Below are positions 9,827 through 24,327 of a stretch of DNA of 24,327 nt, one piece after another. Source of the stretch: a virus; IMG/VR virus record IMGVR_UViG_3300044681_000560, positions 1-24,327 of that record; one strand, given 5' to 3'. Positions within the stretch are counted from its first letter, which is position 1, and each line of letters opens with the position of its first letter. A model generated the notes under the pieces. That model made no database searches. It was not told the origin of the DNA and saw nothing but the letters and a program-made list of their open reading frames with translations. Position numbers and translations under genes: made by a program.

Positions 9827-10049
9827 ATTAATCTTTGCTGTTTGCTGTTCTATTATTGGATTTGTTGGTTTAAATTTTGTTGCCTGTAATTTTATGATTC
9901 CAGGTACAACAAACTATGCAAATCTTTTAGGTGGATTAAAAAATCCCCCTCCAACAGATTGCAAAGAATCTGAAAGAAGAGGATTTGAAACTTTATTAAC
10001 TATATTAACTACAGTAATTGCACTAAGAACTAAAGTAGAAGAAGATTAA
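9720..10049 (+). CDS. Small membrane protein, 109 aa, possible holin-like
   Basis: The start ATG at 9720 has a strong GAGGGAG ribosome site seven bases upstream. The N-terminal 30 residues are polar (Gln/Ser/Lys-rich). A transmembrane helix follows at about 36-60 (LIFAVCCSIIGFVGLNFVAC). After a Pro-rich linker, a second shorter hydrophobic helix lies at about 89-102 (FETLLTILTTVIAL), ahead of a charged tail. Small size, one or two membrane segments and a position beside the lysozyme gene fit a holin or other lysis protein. Its orientation is opposite to the lysozyme, and the two genes overlap by four bases tail to tail. The holin role is inference. Confidence 0.6.
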   Translation: MRIGDRNQRDNSQKSSGSSEDQQKEVGKKQSSILNKLIFAVCCSIIGFVGLNFVACNFMIPGTTNYANLLGGLKNPPPTDCKESERRGFETLLTILTTVIALRTKVEED

Positions 10050-10660
10050 GACTTCCAAAGATTACCTTCTGCTTTTCTTCTTCTTGCTAATCCTGCTTCA
10101 ACATTAGTACCAGGATTTCTATAAAGATATAAAGCATCAGGAACTTTGTCCCATTCTTTATTCTTTAGGCATTTAGTAATAGTATTAAAGTTAGAACCAC
10201 CGTAAAAACCGGCACCAAGATTATAAGCAAAGCTGAGCAAAGCACCTCTTTGCCCATCAGTCATCTCACTCCAATAAGGTATTTTTTGTAGGGAAGGAAG
10301 AAACTCCCTTCTCAATTGATAATACAATAGATCATCTGCTTCATCTTGAGTGATTGTATTACCAATCATAAATCTAGTTCCATCTTTTCTTCTGGTACTT
10401 CCCCAACCTATTGTGATAGGTAATCCACCAGTAAGAGGATCATAATATGCCTTAAGATGACATCCTTCAAATTCCTTAATTAAATCAACACCCCTTTCAG
10501 GAAGACCTTCCAGTGTTGGTTCAATCTTTTGATTTCTAAATCTTCTAGCAAATTCATCTATAATTTCTTTATGAACTGATGCTTGAAGAAAATTCCAGGC
10601 ATCTAATTGATGTGGAAGATCTTGATGATGTTTTACAGCATCAATAAATTTAATAGTCAT
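10046..10660 (-). CDS. GH24-type lysozyme/endolysin with N-terminal extension, 204 aa
   Basis: The start is the ATG at 10660, with AGAAGG six bases upstream; a TTG two codons earlier is less likely. Residues 57-204 match phage GH24 lysozymes. The 'EFEG' motif carries the catalytic Glu (E65), nine residues before D74 (AYYDPLTGG), and T83 lies in the TIGWGS segment. Next come a typical MTDGQRGALLSFAYNLGAG helix and a C-terminal RRRKAE motif. The Asp-Thr spacing is three residues longer than the classic E-8-D-5-T. The first 55 residues form an extra helical region of unknown role. The enzyme cuts the glycan strands of peptidoglycan at lysis. It lies two bases after the L,D-transpeptidase stop, so the genes are coupled. 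Confidence 0.9.
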   Translation of the reverse strand: MTIKFIDAVKHHQDLPHQLDAWNFLQASVHKEIIDEFARRFRNQKIEPTLEGLPERGVDLIKEFEGCHLKAYYDPLTGGLPITIGWGSTRRKDGTRFMIGNTITQDEADDLLYYQLRREFLPSLQKIPYWSEMTDGQRGALLSFAYNLGAGFYGGSNFNTITKCLKNKEWDKVPDALYLYRNPGTNVEAGLARRRKAEGNLWKS

Positions 10661-10662
10661 AA

Positions 10663-11175
10663 TCAACCTTCTTGATAAACAGAAACAAAAACAGTTCCCT
10701 TTTTAGTAAGTGGAAGCAAATGATCTTTCAGATGTTGGTTATGCATTCTAACACAACCATGAGTTGAGAAAAGTCTCTGCATCGGTGCCCAAGCACCAGG
10801 CCATCCACAAGCAGATCCTCCACCATGAACCATAATTCCAGCACGACCATATTTTGCTTCTTGACCTTCAAGTTCTACAAGGTCAAAACTATACCAACCA
10901 TATGCCATTAAAGTTCTATCATATGAAGGATTTGCACCCACATTTTCATAGTCCTTATAGATGGTTCCAATCTTATAAAGACCTGGAGGAGTGTCTGTAT
11001 TTGTCAGTTTAAACTCAAAGTCACTTCCTTGACCTCTTGCCAATGCAGGAAGTTCCCACAAAAGTTTTCCAGTAAAATCATATGCCTTTGCTGTTTGAGA
11101 AATATCATTCACAATGATATGAGTATCACCAGATTTAAATCCAAAATCTTGTGGTTTCTTTTTAGGTCCAATCAT
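10663..11175 (-). CDS. YkuD-family L,D-transpeptidase-like protein, 170 aa
   Basis: The C-terminal half carries the YkuD active-site signature: H117 in IMVHGGG, then S137-T-H-G-C141-V-R (STHGCVRMHN), with Cys141 as the expected nucleophile. The N-terminal part (THIIVNDISQTAKAYDFTGK, then TPPGLYKIGTIY) is the usual beta-sandwich start of the fold. There is no signal peptide, so like an endolysin it would need a holin to reach the wall. TTTAGGAGAAACAAATG gives a strong ribosome site inside the upstream gene's stop region. In bacteria these enzymes make 3-3 crosslinks or attach proteins to peptidoglycan. In a phage lysis cluster, a hydrolytic or crosslink-altering use is plausible but unproven. 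Confidence 0.88.
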   Translation of the reverse strand: MIGPKKKPQDFGFKSGDTHIIVNDISQTAKAYDFTGKLLWELPALARGQGSDFEFKLTNTDTPPGLYKIGTIYKDYENVGANPSYDRTLMAYGWYSFDLVELEGQEAKYGRAGIMVHGGGSACGWPGAWAPMQRLFSTHGCVRMHNQHLKDHLLPLTKKGTVFVSVYQEG

Positions 11176-19604: not shown

Positions 19605-21071
19605 TCAGAACTTGAACGTCGTCTGGATTACACCACCCCAGTTAGAGGAGTTGCCAACGAGACGTTGGTTGTCACTACCGTAGATGATAGCAGGAGTGAC
19701 ACTGATGTTGTCAGACACTTGATACTTGTAAAAGATTTCAAGCATCGTGGACTTCTCAAGGTTAGAACCAGTAGGAGCTTGACCAATAGCAACACCAGCA
19801 GAGTTACCATCAACAAACACATCATCCCAAGTGAGACCAGCAAACCAGGACTGACTGTTGGTAGCAGCACTTTCAGTACCACTTACGGTATTCCAACCAT
19901 AACCACCAGAGATGGAGGGAACCCAACCAGATTGAGTGGGCTGCCAGTATGCGTTGATAGCATAACCGTTAGAAGTCTGACCGGGAACCAGAGTTCCAGA
20001 AGCACCATTCAGACCGTTGTAGGTACGAACACGGGTGCCTTCAGTGCCATAACGATAACCGAAAGCAGCACCCCAGTTATCACCACGATAACCAACTTGT
20101 GCCAGAGTATTCAGAGCACCAGATTTATCGAACTCACCAGTAGAACTATCAGCACCATTCTGTGCCACATAGTTTACACCAGCAACAAGACCTTTCTTAC
20201 CATACTGAACACCGAAACCAGAACCAGTTGCCTTGTTATAAACACCAGGAGCACCAGCAACAGCAAAGAAGTCAAGGATACCAGACTTATATGCAGTAGG
20301 CACCCAAGCCATTTCAGTGTTACGAACCAGAGCACCAGCAGTAAGAGTGGTGCTACCGTTGAACACAGGGAACTGATAATACAGACGGTCGATAACTACC
20401 GCATCACCCATGTCTCCTTGAGTGTTGTCTGCTTTATCCAGTTTGAAGATAGATGAGCTGGAACCGAAAGGATTGCTGCTGAAGTTAGAAGAACGCAGAC
20501 GGGTCTTGAGAAGGTCCTTGCCAGTGAATGAAGTATCCAGGTTCAGACGCAGATCGTAGTTGAATGCAGTACGAGTGATGTCACCACCTTTAGTTTGGTA
20601 GTCATCAACACCACCAAGAACGAAGGATGCCTCACCACGCAGTTTGGTTGTAGTGGAGAACTGTTGTGCTTCAAGTGTAGTCACTTGTGCTTCCAGTTTA
20701 TCAACACGACCACGAAGAACTGCAAGTTCTGCAGCAAACTCATTAGCAAGACGCTTGAGTTCATCAGTAACTTCAGTCACACGATCCAGACAAGCATTCA
20801 GAAGTGCTGCTGCCTCATATCGGGTCATTGCACGACCACCACGGAAAGTGCCGTTAGGATAACCAGCAACGCAACCATAACGCTCTACAAGGTTGCTGAG
20901 TGCAGAGTATGCCCAATCGGTTGGTTGCACATCAGAAAATTGAGTAATACTTGTAACCTGTTCTGAAGAATATTGGGTTACTCCACTCATATTGAGTTCT
21001 GCAGCATTCACAGCAGGAGCAACGATCCCCAGAGCAACAGGTGCAAGCATCAGTTGTTTGAAAAATTTCAT
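19605..21071 (-). CDS. SLH-domain cyanobacterial outer-membrane porin (Som/OprB type), 488 aa
   Basis: A signal peptide (residues 1-23, MKFFKQLMLAPVALGIVAPA ending VNA) is followed by an SLH domain at about 44-98 (FSDVQPTDWAYSALSNLVER, GYPNGTFRGGRAMTRYEAAA). A coiled coil at about 100-137 (VTDELKRLANEFAAELAVLR) comes next. Then a long beta-barrel of alternating strands, from about 140 on, ends in phenylalanine (IQTTFKF) as outer-membrane barrels do. This is the exact order of cyanobacterial major porins (SomA/SomB). The SLH part binds peptidoglycan-linked polymer, and the barrel passes small solutes or inorganic nutrients. It has its own TATAAATA late promoter and lies between two tRNA genes. 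It was probably acquired from a host. Confidence 0.95.
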   Translation of the reverse strand: MKFFKQLMLAPVALGIVAPAVNAAELNMSGVTQYSSEQVTSITQFSDVQPTDWAYSALSNLVERYGCVAGYPNGTFRGGRAMTRYEAAALLNACLDRVTEVTDELKRLANEFAAELAVLRGRVDKLEAQVTTLEAQQFSTTTKLRGEASFVLGGVDDYQTKGGDITRTAFNYDLRLNLDTSFTGKDLLKTRLRSSNFSSNPFGSSSSIFKLDKADNTQGDMGDAVVIDRLYYQFPVFNGSTTLTAGALVRNTEMAWVPTAYKSGILDFFAVAGAPGVYNKATGSGFGVQYGKKGLVAGVNYVAQNGADSSTGEFDKSGALNTLAQVGYRGDNWGAAFGYRYGTEGTRVRTYNGLNGASGTLVPGQTSNGYAINAYWQPTQSGWVPSISGGYGWNTVSGTESAATNSQSWFAGLTWDDVFVDGNSAGVAIGQAPTGSNLEKSTMLEIFYKYQVSDNISVTPAIIYGSDNQRLVGNSSNWGGVIQTTFKF

Positions 21072-21102
21072 ATAGTTTGTTAAGAATTACAACTACAGTT
21101 TT

Positions 21103-21110
21103 TATTTATA
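21103..21110 (-). promoter_or_regulatory. Late promoter TATAAATA for the porin
   Basis: Minus-strand TATAAATA is 31 bases upstream of the porin ATG and just past the 3' end of tRNA-Gly. Late timing would make the porin a late protein. Confidence 0.65.
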
Positions 21111-21748: not shown

Positions 21749-21937
21749 CTAAAGAATGTCCGAAATATACTCTAGTGATACCACTTCAAGTTCTTCATTT
21801 TGAACTACCCATTCTTGAATTTCAAGATACAAAGCAGTTGCTTCTTTAGACTTACCATTCAAACACAATTCGTGCATTCTGTCAATTCTTCGATCAATTT
21901 CAAGTCTACACAATTCTCTCAACTCAAGTCGATTCAT
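21749..21937 (-). CDS. Small helical hypothetical protein, 62 aa
   Basis: A charged all-helical protein (MNRLELRELCRLEIDRRIDR, KEATALYLEIQEWVVQNEEL) with no membrane segment or metal site. The ATG overlaps the end of the nuclease-like gene by 14 bases, and AGGAAAG lies about nine bases upstream, so translation is coupled. Function unknown; small Leu/Glu-rich proteins like this are often regulators or inhibitors in T4-like phages. Confidence 0.65.
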   Translation of the reverse strand: MNRLELRELCRLEIDRRIDRMHELCLNGKSKEATALYLEIQEWVVQNEELEVVSLEYISDIL

Positions 21938-22352
21938 AATAATCTTTCCTGAAGTATCTCCCTAGGATATTGCTATTATAGTACCTAGGCTCTCCAGTGT
22001 CAAGGGATTCAGTTAAAACATTGTTTAGAAACAACTGTTTAGTTTCTTCGTAATTAGTTTTACCTATTGTTTTATGTAATGATAGTATGAATCTTTTAAA
22101 CTTATCCTTACCATACTTCTTTACATCTTCTTTTAATTCTGGACAGGATCCATAATACTTTTTCCAATCACTTTCCTGTTTAACTTTTCTAGACTTACCC
22201 TTCGGTTTTCTAAAAGACCAAAAATACTTTCTTCCCAAATAAATTCTGGAAGTCTCAGTGCATTCAATACGATAAACAAAACCAAAGTAATCCAATATGT
22301 CAGGTGAATCAAACACCTGTCCTTGATATATCCAAGGGTTCTCATAGGTCAT
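21924..22352 (-). CDS. GIY-YIG-like endonuclease (Seg/homing type), 142 aa
   Basis: The 'GIY-YIG' half-motifs appear as GFVYRIE (24-30) and RIYLGRKYFW (36-45), a variant with FVY and YLG. Basic KPKGKSRKVKQESDWKKYYG follows, typical of phage homing endonucleases of this class. The catalytic glutamate is probably E102 or E103 (TNYEETKQLF), and a conserved Asn appears at YYNSNILGRYF. No separate DNA-binding C-terminal domain is obvious, so it is short. It has a TTGACA-N17-TAGAAT early promoter and a GATAAATA late one. Homing or restriction-like roles are inference. Confidence 0.78.
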   Translation of the reverse strand: MTYENPWIYQGQVFDSPDILDYFGFVYRIECTETSRIYLGRKYFWSFRKPKGKSRKVKQESDWKKYYGSCPELKEDVKKYGKDKFKRFILSLHKTIGKTNYEETKQLFLNNVLTESLDTGEPRYYNSNILGRYFRKDYYEST

Positions 22353-22401: not shown

Positions 22402-22430
22402 ATTCTAACGACCTATGAGAACAATGTCAA
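22402..22430 (-). promoter_or_regulatory. Sigma70 promoter TTGACA-N17-TAGAAT (nuclease gene)
   Basis: TTGACA (22430-22425), 17 bases, TAGAAT (22407-22402) on the minus strand, just after the HAD gene stop. Confidence 0.78.
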
Positions 22431-22433
22431 GTA

Positions 22434-23831
22434 TTACTTTGTTGCCTGATAAGAACGTACCTTAGATTCACCAGTTTTCTTATCTGGTGCTACCATATGA
22501 GTTTTGATTTTCTTTGATACTGGTACATTCTTCTTCTCTTTCTCAAATGCCTTATGTACTTTGGCAGCATCATCATACATATGAACTTTGCTAGCACCAC
22601 TCTTCTTCGCAACAGCATTAGCAACCTTCACTTTCTTCTCACCAACATCACCACCCTTCATTCCACCAGTGTAGTGAATCTTTGACTTATCTACATCAAC
22701 ACCGTGCTTCTTGAGGTGTCCTTGGAATTCACTTGGTTTATCAAACTTAGAACGAGCAGTAATAAGGTGAACGTTTTGTCCTCTTGCCTGCTTTCTCTTG
22801 ATATCTTTGATTACTTTCTTATTTGGACTTGAAGTTTCCTTGAACTTCTTGGCACTCTGGAACTCACCGAAGTCATAAGAATGACCTTTCTCCAACTTAT
22901 GAGTGTTGAACTCCTGGTTACTTAAACTCTTAACTCTCTTACCAGATGAGTCCTTAACGTGAACCTTGACGTTTGGTTTGCCCTTTTTACCGTGAGAAAA
23001 CAAGGTCTCATCGACATCATATGCGTGAACTGTTTTCTTGGGTCTAGTTCCTCTTGCCTTTTCTAAAAGATATTCTTCATCTACTTTCTTTTTATTATAT
23101 TGCTTCCAAGCAGTCGCATAAGCAATTGCTCTTTCTCTATCGGTCAGTCCATCTTTGGAGTAACCTTTCTTGATATGCTTCACCATTCTTTCGAATTTTG
23201 CCCCAGGAGGTGCTTTCTCTACCAATTCCACCTCTTCCTTGGGAACACAATTTGGAACGGTCTTACCACCTTTCTTCTTTGTTCCTATTGGTTCATATCC
23301 CTTCCAACAAGGATTTGTATTCCTTAAAGTTTTTTCTTTCTTTGCTTCATCCAAAATCATTCTCATTCTATCTTTAGATGCTTCAAATTCTTCCTTCTTA
23401 TGCATTGCTTCCCAATATGAATCCCAATTCTCCTTATCTTTTTTTGCCTGCTCTCTTGATGATGGAGTAAATGAAGATGCCTTATTTCTAGTACCTTGTC
23501 CCAATGGAACTCTCTTTTTAGGACCAGATGCTGCTGCTCTTTTTGCCATTTTCTGGATTTCTGGATCTGAACCAGTTCTCTTTACACTGCCAATTGTTTT
23601 AGTTACAGGATCCCAATGTGCTTCACCAAGTTCAACTTCCTCACTGTTTACTTTAGGCAGTTTCACTGCTGCTGCCTTTTTCTTTTGGAGTTCTACTGCC
23701 TTTGGTCCTAACTGTCTTGCTGCACTTGGAGTGAGTGCTCCTGCACCAGAAGATTTCCTAACTTCAAAACTAGGAGACTTAGCTTCGTAAACTTTACTAT
23801 ATGCTTCTCTAATATTATTAAGACCAGACAT
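22434..23831 (-). CDS. Modular protein with C-terminal HAD-like domain, 465 aa
   Basis: Very Lys-rich and modular. The N-terminus (MSGLNNIREAYSKVYEAKSP) and repeated EEVEL blocks resemble T4-like cyanophage virion/internal proteins. Residues 172-198 (NPCWKGYEPIGTKKKGGKTV) and 206-247 (APPGAKFERMVKHIKKGYSK, TDRERAIAYATAWKQYNKKK) are short modules I associate with such proteins. The C-terminal part is a HAD-type fold: motif I YDVDETLF (D272, D274), motif II LITAR (T358), a Lys-rich motif III near 399-401 (GEKKVKVANAVAK), motif IV MYDDAAK (D420, D421). All catalytic elements look intact, so a phosphatase or nucleotidase acting on phage or host metabolites, or on nucleic acid ends, is possible. 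It has its own TATAAATA late promoter. Confidence 0.8.
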   Translation of the reverse strand: MSGLNNIREAYSKVYEAKSPSFEVRKSSGAGALTPSAARQLGPKAVELQKKKAAAVKLPKVNSEEVELGEAHWDPVTKTIGSVKRTGSDPEIQKMAKRAAASGPKKRVPLGQGTRNKASSFTPSSREQAKKDKENWDSYWEAMHKKEEFEASKDRMRMILDEAKKEKTLRNTNPCWKGYEPIGTKKKGGKTVPNCVPKEEVELVEKAPPGAKFERMVKHIKKGYSKDGLTDRERAIAYATAWKQYNKKKVDEEYLLEKARGTRPKKTVHAYDVDETLFSHGKKGKPNVKVHVKDSSGKRVKSLSNQEFNTHKLEKGHSYDFGEFQSAKKFKETSSPNKKVIKDIKRKQARGQNVHLITARSKFDKPSEFQGHLKKHGVDVDKSKIHYTGGMKGGDVGEKKVKVANAVAKKSGASKVHMYDDAAKVHKAFEKEKKNVPVSKKIKTHMVAPDKKTGESKVRSYQATK

Positions 23832-23852: not shown

Positions 23853-23860
23853 TATTTATA
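23853..23860 (-). promoter_or_regulatory. Late promoter TATAAATA (modular HAD gene)
   Basis: Minus-strand TATAAATA is 21 bases before the ATG at 23831. It overlaps the T-tract of the nrdB terminator. Confidence 0.7.
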
Positions 23861-23884
23861 AAAAAAGAGGGTCCGAAGACCCTC
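23860..23884 (-). terminator. Rho-independent terminator of nrdB with UUCG loop
   Basis: GAGGGTC-TTCG-GACCCTC followed by seven T on the minus strand, four bases after the nrdB stop. The stable UUCG tetraloop and T-tract make this the clearest terminator in the window. Confidence 0.93.
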
Positions 23885-23888
23885 CAAA

Positions 23889-24327
23889 TCAAAGTTTAAA
23901 TCCTGCAAAAGTATCTGTCTTCACATCTTGCTTAATGCCACCAACAACATAAGATTCAACTTCTGTTTCTTGTGGTGCCACTTGAAGACCTTTAGAACTA
24001 ATCCAATGCTCCGTCCAAGGAAGTGGATTATTTTTAGCAGCAATATCATAAATTGGTTTGATTCCAATTGCTCTCATTCTTCGATTAGCAATCCACTCAA
24101 CATAATTGTTGAGTAGTTTATCATTCAGACCAATCATAGAACCATCTTTGAAGAGATACTGTGCCCACTCCTTTTCCTGATCTACGCAATTCCTGAAGGT
24201 AGAAATTACCCAATCTTGTTCTTCTTTAGCAATTTGCTGCATTTCCGGATCATCCCCTTCACTCCACTTATTGAGGATGTTTTGAGTAATGACAAGGTGC
24301 TGATTTTCGTCTCTTGCGATGAGAGAG
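23889..24327 (-). CDS. nrdB: Ribonucleotide reductase beta subunit, C-terminal 145 residues (cut by window edge)
   Basis: The frame continues past the ATG at 24242 to the window edge. The upstream part contains SLIARDENQHLVITQNILNK, the 'ARDE-x-x-H' diiron-ligand motif of class I RNR small subunits. Further on are KDGSMIGLN, YVEWIANRRMRAIG and NPLPWTEHWISSKG. The C-terminal tail TDTFAGFKL is the typical peptide that docks to the large subunit. It makes deoxyribonucleotides for phage DNA replication together with NrdA, which must lie outside the window. A UUCG-loop terminator directly follows. Confidence 0.95.
   Translation of the reverse strand, partial: SLIARDENQHLVITQNILNKWSEGDDPEMQQIAKEEQDWVISTFRNCVDQEKEWAQYLFKDGSMIGLNDKLLNNYVEWIANRRMRAIGIKPIYDIAAKNNPLPWTEHWISSKGLQVAPQETEVESYVVGGIKQDVKTDTFAGFKL

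Follow-up and report, generated by a model that had tools for sequence, protein, structure and literature searches.

The closest described systems are the internal head proteins of T4 (IPI, IPII, IPIII and Alt), which carry a capsid-targeting sequence (CTS), are processed by the prohead protease gp21 and are ejected into the host; gp21 cleaves after L/I-X-E (PMC9026906). The N-terminus of both IPII and IPIII is MKTYQEFIAE|A. Enzymes are likewise known from cyanophage virions. The cytidylyltransferase (T4-GC190) is a virion protein in S-SM1 (PMC3037559) and in S-CREM2 (PMC10665884), and together with the SAM hydrolase gp6 and the APH-like kinase gp14 it belongs to a group of enzymes that mass spectrometry has detected in virions (PMC3037559, PMC10665884). 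The virion-detected S-CREM2 proteins gp6, gp13, gp14, gp136 and gp154 have T4-like leaders, e.g., MKNFSSFLTE|A. The searchable literature that combines “cyanophage” with “capsid targeting” yielded a T4 review only.

S-CREM2 offers a further observation in this connection. Its operon gp15-gp12 (OR473000, 7704-13331; locus L087) has the motif TATAAATA before gp15. Its four products, namely an APH-like kinase, a pair of small proteins and a protein with the annotation CRISPR-Cas9 nuclease, are all in the virion proteome. Capsid-targeting-like leaders begin gp12, gp13 and gp14 (RFASFMAE|A, MKDLHSFLTE and VKRFDAFLTE, respectively).

The gene considered here lies in a 24 kb virus record (24,327 nucleotides; hereafter the window), within which its surroundings were read. 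It occupies positions 23831..22434 on the minus strand, a strand that the original prediction had not given, and encodes 465 amino acids from an ATG start as an open reading frame without an internal stop. That prediction described a Lys-rich modular protein with an intact HAD-type phosphatase, and the description is confirmed: the reading frame, the motifs and the modules are all real. We believe, with a probability of about 0.6, that the gene encodes a late, head-packaged and protease-processed carrier of a phosphatase resembling that of the T4 polynucleotide kinase (Pnkp); the substrate is the least certain step.

By analogy, the protein would work like the T4 internal proteins. It has in common with them a late promoter, a basic composition and L/I-X-E sites, and the phages with this gene likewise encode gp21, gp22 and gp23. 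Unlike them, it has a HAD phosphatase as its cargo, the leader in the window is not a canonical CTS, and several shuffled modules precede the cargo, whereas the T4 proteins have a leader of 10 residues. The comparison with the cyanophage virion enzymes is similar. The gene is, like theirs, outside the main structural block and has a late-type promoter; however, those enzymes have the canonical MKxFxxFxxE leader, whereas in the phosphatase a mosaic N-terminal part takes its place. No virion proteome was found for a phage that carries the gene.

Relatives were found in viral contigs (127 in the first search and 147 in the second). In named phages, tblastn found no relative of the HAD domain and matched the modules only; the scan of species genomes also found no relative. 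The tblastn matches in Pseudomonas phage Drael01 and Enterobacter phage IME523 were weak (about 45 residues, E 1-4), and the former was dropped as a chance match, since its strand is opposite to that of the annotated genes at the locus.

The 3' part of nrdB (23889..24326, minus strand) lies upstream, and a gene for a SegE-like GIY-YIG protein (21924..22352, minus strand) lies downstream; among the best 80 loci with the HAD gene, nrdB was seen in 70 and SegE in 74. The SegE-like protein is named “NAD synthetase” in cyanophage records and in PHROG 447, but it is of the SegE GIY-YIG type according to Pfam (E 6e-52). In phage Sf-CH8 the position flanked by nrdB and the SegE-like gene is taken by SfCH8_135 (L084, 2524-4653), a modular protein of 709 residues annotated as a cytidyltransferase. 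We considered it as a cytidylyltransferase fusion and rejected this; no nucleotidyltransferase motif was seen by eye, and the database name therefore seems wrong. In S-CREM2 the region after nrdB includes gp168-gp170, annotated as a peptidase and two lysozymes. Elsewhere in the window an L,D-transpeptidase (YkuD) gene (10046-11175, minus strand) adjoins a phage lysozyme gene.

The late promoter is the first line of evidence. The cyanophage late promoter motif is NATAAATA (PMC2984593), and a T4-type late promoter motif, TATAAATA, is found 29 nt ahead of the ATG (23853..23860, minus strand). Within the 120 nt ahead of the start codon, TATAAAT is present in the window and in 44 of 49 distinct relatives, at a distance of about 30 nt from the ATG; the expectation is 0.042 per 120 nt. 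An intrinsic terminator (GGAGGGTC-TTCG-GACCCTCT and a T-run; 23866..23885, minus strand) directly follows nrdB, and similar hairpins are visible at the equivalent place in most relatives. The downstream SegE-like gene has a sigma-70-type promoter of its own, TTGACA-17-TAGAAT (11 of 12 positions; 22402..22430, minus strand); the HAD gene therefore constitutes a separate late unit. As a sequence motif, then, the gene has the late promoter expected of a T4-type internal head protein. In S-CREM2 virion and non-virion proteins could not be told apart by the late motif alone (p 0.19), perhaps because most genes are in operons. At 300-328, 1853-1875 and 21071-21110 of the window (minus strand), TATAAAT also occurs 22-39 nt ahead of three further minus-strand reading frames, of which two are tail-fibre-like and one is porin-like.

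The leader is less clear. Residues 1-16 (MSGLNNIREAYSKVYE; 23784..23831, minus strand) constitute a possible capsid-targeting leader, and at the equivalent place relatives have FKRFYSE|G or YKSFYTE|G. In some relatives the leader (YQSFYSE|G, FKRFYSE|G) is similar to the T4 sequence MKTYQEFIAE|A. The leaders were scored with a matrix built solely from other proteins, which supersedes our first regular expression, loosened after the data were seen. On this matrix the leader of the window is at the 76th percentile of the background, i.e., it is ordinary and does not qualify as a canonical capsid-targeting sequence. Taken together, the HAD leaders are above the background (p 5e-7, for sequences that are not independent); four of them are at or above the 98th percentile and many others are not canonical. 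Considering that the leader of the window reaches only the 76th percentile, the targeting step is one that we infer. The virion protein gp160 of S-CREM2 likewise lacks a canonical leader, so packaging routes other than such a leader exist.

Four modules follow on the minus strand: residues 17-70 (23622..23783), ending in VELGE|A; residues 71-162 (23346..23621), ending in MILDE|A; residues 163-205 (23217..23345), NPCWKGYEPIGTKKKGGKTVPNCVPKEEVELVE|K, which match PHROG 9737; and residues 206-257 (23061..23216), KFERMVKHIKKGYSKDG..AYATAWK, ending in EEYLLE|K. The short cyanophage-type modules of the original prediction are thus real, and single modules recur in cyanophage proteins, as do the blocks NPCWKGYE..NCVPKEE and KYERMVKHIKKGY..AYATAWK. 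PHROG 9737 and PHROG 12887 match single modules, PHROG 30733 matches residues 204-459 (E 2e-8), and all three families are of unknown function. The N-terminal part is mosaic and evolves quickly. We compared 72 pairs of distinct architectures with HAD domains of 88% identity or more, and in 66 of them less than half of the sequence ahead of the HAD domain was common to both members. When this part was compared with the S-CREM2 proteome, the sole significant match was gp160 (E 2e-7), with which the module of residues 163-205 is shared. The protein gp160 was detected in purified virions by mass spectrometry with 7 peptides (PMC10665884). Another protein, SCREM1_219 of S-CREM1, has two modules in common with the window protein.

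The distribution of prohead protease sites differs sharply between the two parts of the protein. In 28 distinct architectures the N-terminal parts contain 148 [LI]xE sites against 82±8 in shuffled sequences, and the HAD domains contain none against 14.8±3.6; these statistics overstate the significance because the relatives are not independent, and chance alone would put only about 0.5 sites in a single HAD domain. The controls were non-virion S-CREM2 proteins, at 1.18 times the expectation, and the scaffold gp144, at 2.94 times. The broader pattern [LIVMFY]xE[AGSK] shows no excess in the N-terminal parts (82 against 75.6±8.3). Every complete junction with the HAD domain reads [IL]xE|K despite differing upstream modules; in the window it is YLLE|K, with a cut predicted after residue 257. 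L/I-X-E sites of the gp21 type that could free a mature part are thus present, in the form of a motif.

An N-terminal part rich in [LI]xE, as in the scaffold gp144, and composed of mosaic, Lys-rich modules could also belong to a component of the prohead core or scaffold, which is packaged and cut, and whose HAD domain acts in assembly or stays in the head without being ejected. We consider this improbable. The catalytic motifs are under purifying selection and the HAD domain is free of [LI]xE, which suggests that the enzyme outlives processing; in addition, the T4 internal proteins are ejected (PMC9026906).

The head machinery that packaging would need is encoded by phages with this gene. Of eight long contigs carrying the HAD gene, six encode gp21, with gp22 and gp23 beside it, and gp23 in such contigs has FL[YGAS]E| near residue 55 where its N-terminus is complete. 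The cytidylyltransferases in these contigs have the leader MK[ST]FxxF[FVI]xE|A and a late motif ahead; thus, at least one enzyme with a T4-type capsid-targeting leader is encoded together with the HAD gene. The gene psbA was found in 8 of 10 contigs carrying the HAD gene. In contigs G004 and G005 (those of loci L066 and L076) the psbA match is split in two and one piece holds stops, a pattern as from an intron or a broken gene.

The original prediction also proposed an enzyme carried in the capsid. This is partly supported: the late promoter, the [LI]xE distribution, the gp21 genes and the module shared with gp160 speak for a head protein, and the leader of the window does not. A location in the head is likely in our estimate, and ejection into the next host has about even odds. 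It is tempting to propose instead a late cytoplasmic enzyme of nucleic acid end repair or nucleotide turnover, with the modules as fast-evolving tails that have no role in packaging, considering that the gene sits between nrdB and a nuclease-like gene, that the fold resembles both Pnkp and AphA, and that the leader is not a canonical targeting sequence. However, the gene has its own late promoter apart from nrdB, [LI]xE is found at every HAD junction, and modules are shared with the virion-detected gp160; we regard the cytoplasmic enzyme as a rather poor prospect and keep to the packaged one.

Residues 258-465 (22437..23060, minus strand) constitute the HAD phosphatase domain, which is very probably an active enzyme. 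All four HAD motifs are present, as had been proposed, and each catalytic motif is intact. Motif I is D272-V-D274-E-T, in agreement with DxDx[TV] with the nucleophile and the acid/base Asp, so D272 had been correctly assigned to it; motif II is T358-A-R360; motif III contributes the lysine K399 (with D395); and D420-D421 form motif IV. An alignment of 25 members that are 69-92% identical to the window protein shows no variation in motifs I, II and IV or in D395 and K399. Loss of motif I in relatives, which would have spoken against an enzyme, was looked for and did not occur: the motif is present in all relatives long enough to show it. Purifying selection acts on the gene: 106 usable pairs give a median NG86 dN/dS of 0.098, a rough estimate, because the median dS of 1.2 is close to saturation. 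The Lys-rich character also holds, with 16.0% K (net charge +19) ahead of the HAD domain and 21.6% K (net charge +30) within it.

For the HAD domain no Pfam or NCBIfam model gave a match, and sequence searches of the PDB gave nothing usable. Since no such model recognises the domain, its assignment is based on the motifs, the predicted fold and PHROG 415. Of the 25 members, 24 match this last family, which is annotated “polynucleotide kinase” (best E 3.3e-6; E 4e-4 for the window). The AlphaFold2 model of the domain (mean pLDDT 79, from a shallow alignment) has a HAD fold: 112 chains superimpose on it with Z of at least 8, and the top matches listed are mostly HAD phosphatases. VIA-align ranks the T4 polynucleotide kinase 3'-phosphatase as the closest solved fold (5uj0_B, Z 13.8, with an rmsd of 2.7 over 134 residues), followed by 4xrp (Pnkp1, Z 13.2), 1ltq (Z 12.9) and then AphA (Z 11.0). 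Foldseek alone placed AphA first, with weak E-values.

Among predicted viral structures, relatives occur at 26-32% identity, one of them of 840 residues and named for a deaminase; a more distant match, of 915 residues and 20% identity, bears the name of a cytidyltransferase. These two matches suggest that the domain is found in further long fusion proteins.

The T4 3'-phosphatase (PseT) can be compared residue by residue. Its D165, D167, S211, R213, D254, K258 and D278 correspond to D272, D274, T358, R360, D395, K399 and D421 here, the counterparts being assigned by motif order and spacing. Its catalytic residues, which we take to be D165, D167, R176, R213, D254 and K258, have counterparts in five of six cases; R176 aligns with Lys, by which it is seemingly replaced. 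The two domains are only 14% identical, their sequence profile comparison is weak, and the window domain has a longer insert after motif I, which contains a conserved NQEFNTHKL..GH.YDF.EF block. Unlike the whole T4 Pnkp, the 465 amino acids contain no kinase domain that we could find.

The nearest solved folds are polynucleotide 3'-phosphatases, and among the targets named in the original prediction DNA (or RNA) 3'-ends therefore fit best; nucleotides are possible, and (p)ppGpp is without any support. Nucleic acid 3'-phosphate ends are thus the most likely substrate class, with nucleotides as the main rival; we nonetheless assign a 3'-phosphatase activity tentatively, at somewhat less than even odds. 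A protein packaged as proposed could act on a nucleotide or a small phosphate ester, on the model of AphA, the class C acid phosphatases or the phage dNMP phosphatases. AphA is top by Foldseek and in the second group by VIA-align, and the matches among predicted viral structures in BFVD include a phage deoxynucleoside-5'-monophosphatase. Against this, the Pnkp-type phosphatases rank highest, by about 2 Z units, and PHROG 415 is annotated as polynucleotide kinase; we think a small-molecule substrate unlikely, though by no means negligible.

The packaged Pnkp-like phosphatase would then operate as follows. The late promoter would fire together with the virion genes, and the leader and the Lys-rich modules would carry the protein into the prohead core. 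A gp21-type prohead protease would cut after [LI]xE, at residue 257 (YLLE|K) among other places, and thereby free the basic HAD domain, which is roughly 208 residues long and has no such site. The freed phosphatase would be packed with the DNA and enter the next host alongside it, where it would most likely act like the phosphatase half of T4 polynucleotide kinase and strip 3'-phosphates from the ends of nucleic acids. The marks of a late, protease-cut and head-packed protein thus imply that the virus may bring a phosphatase into the next cell with its DNA.

T4 is known to pack and inject head proteins, and the cyanophage proteomes repeatedly list enzymes without an explanation of how they reach the virion. 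A sequence rule consisting of a late promoter, a leader, [LI]xE spacers and a site-free cargo ties T4 ejection to the cyanophage virion enzymes, and for uncultured phages it predicts which proteins the virus brings into the cell. Perhaps, and we put this forward with some reserve, T4-like cyanophages run a modular delivery, in which exchangeable targeting and DNA-binding modules, with prohead protease sites between them, are shuffled ahead of enzyme cargos, here a Pnkp-like phosphatase; the head protease would release an enzyme for repair or counter-defence, and this would reach the next host together with the DNA. Should the cargo be a 3'-phosphatase, the virus would have a repair enzyme on hand from the first minute of infection, and this enzyme could mend the ends of viral DNA damaged by sunlight or those left by host defence nucleases.
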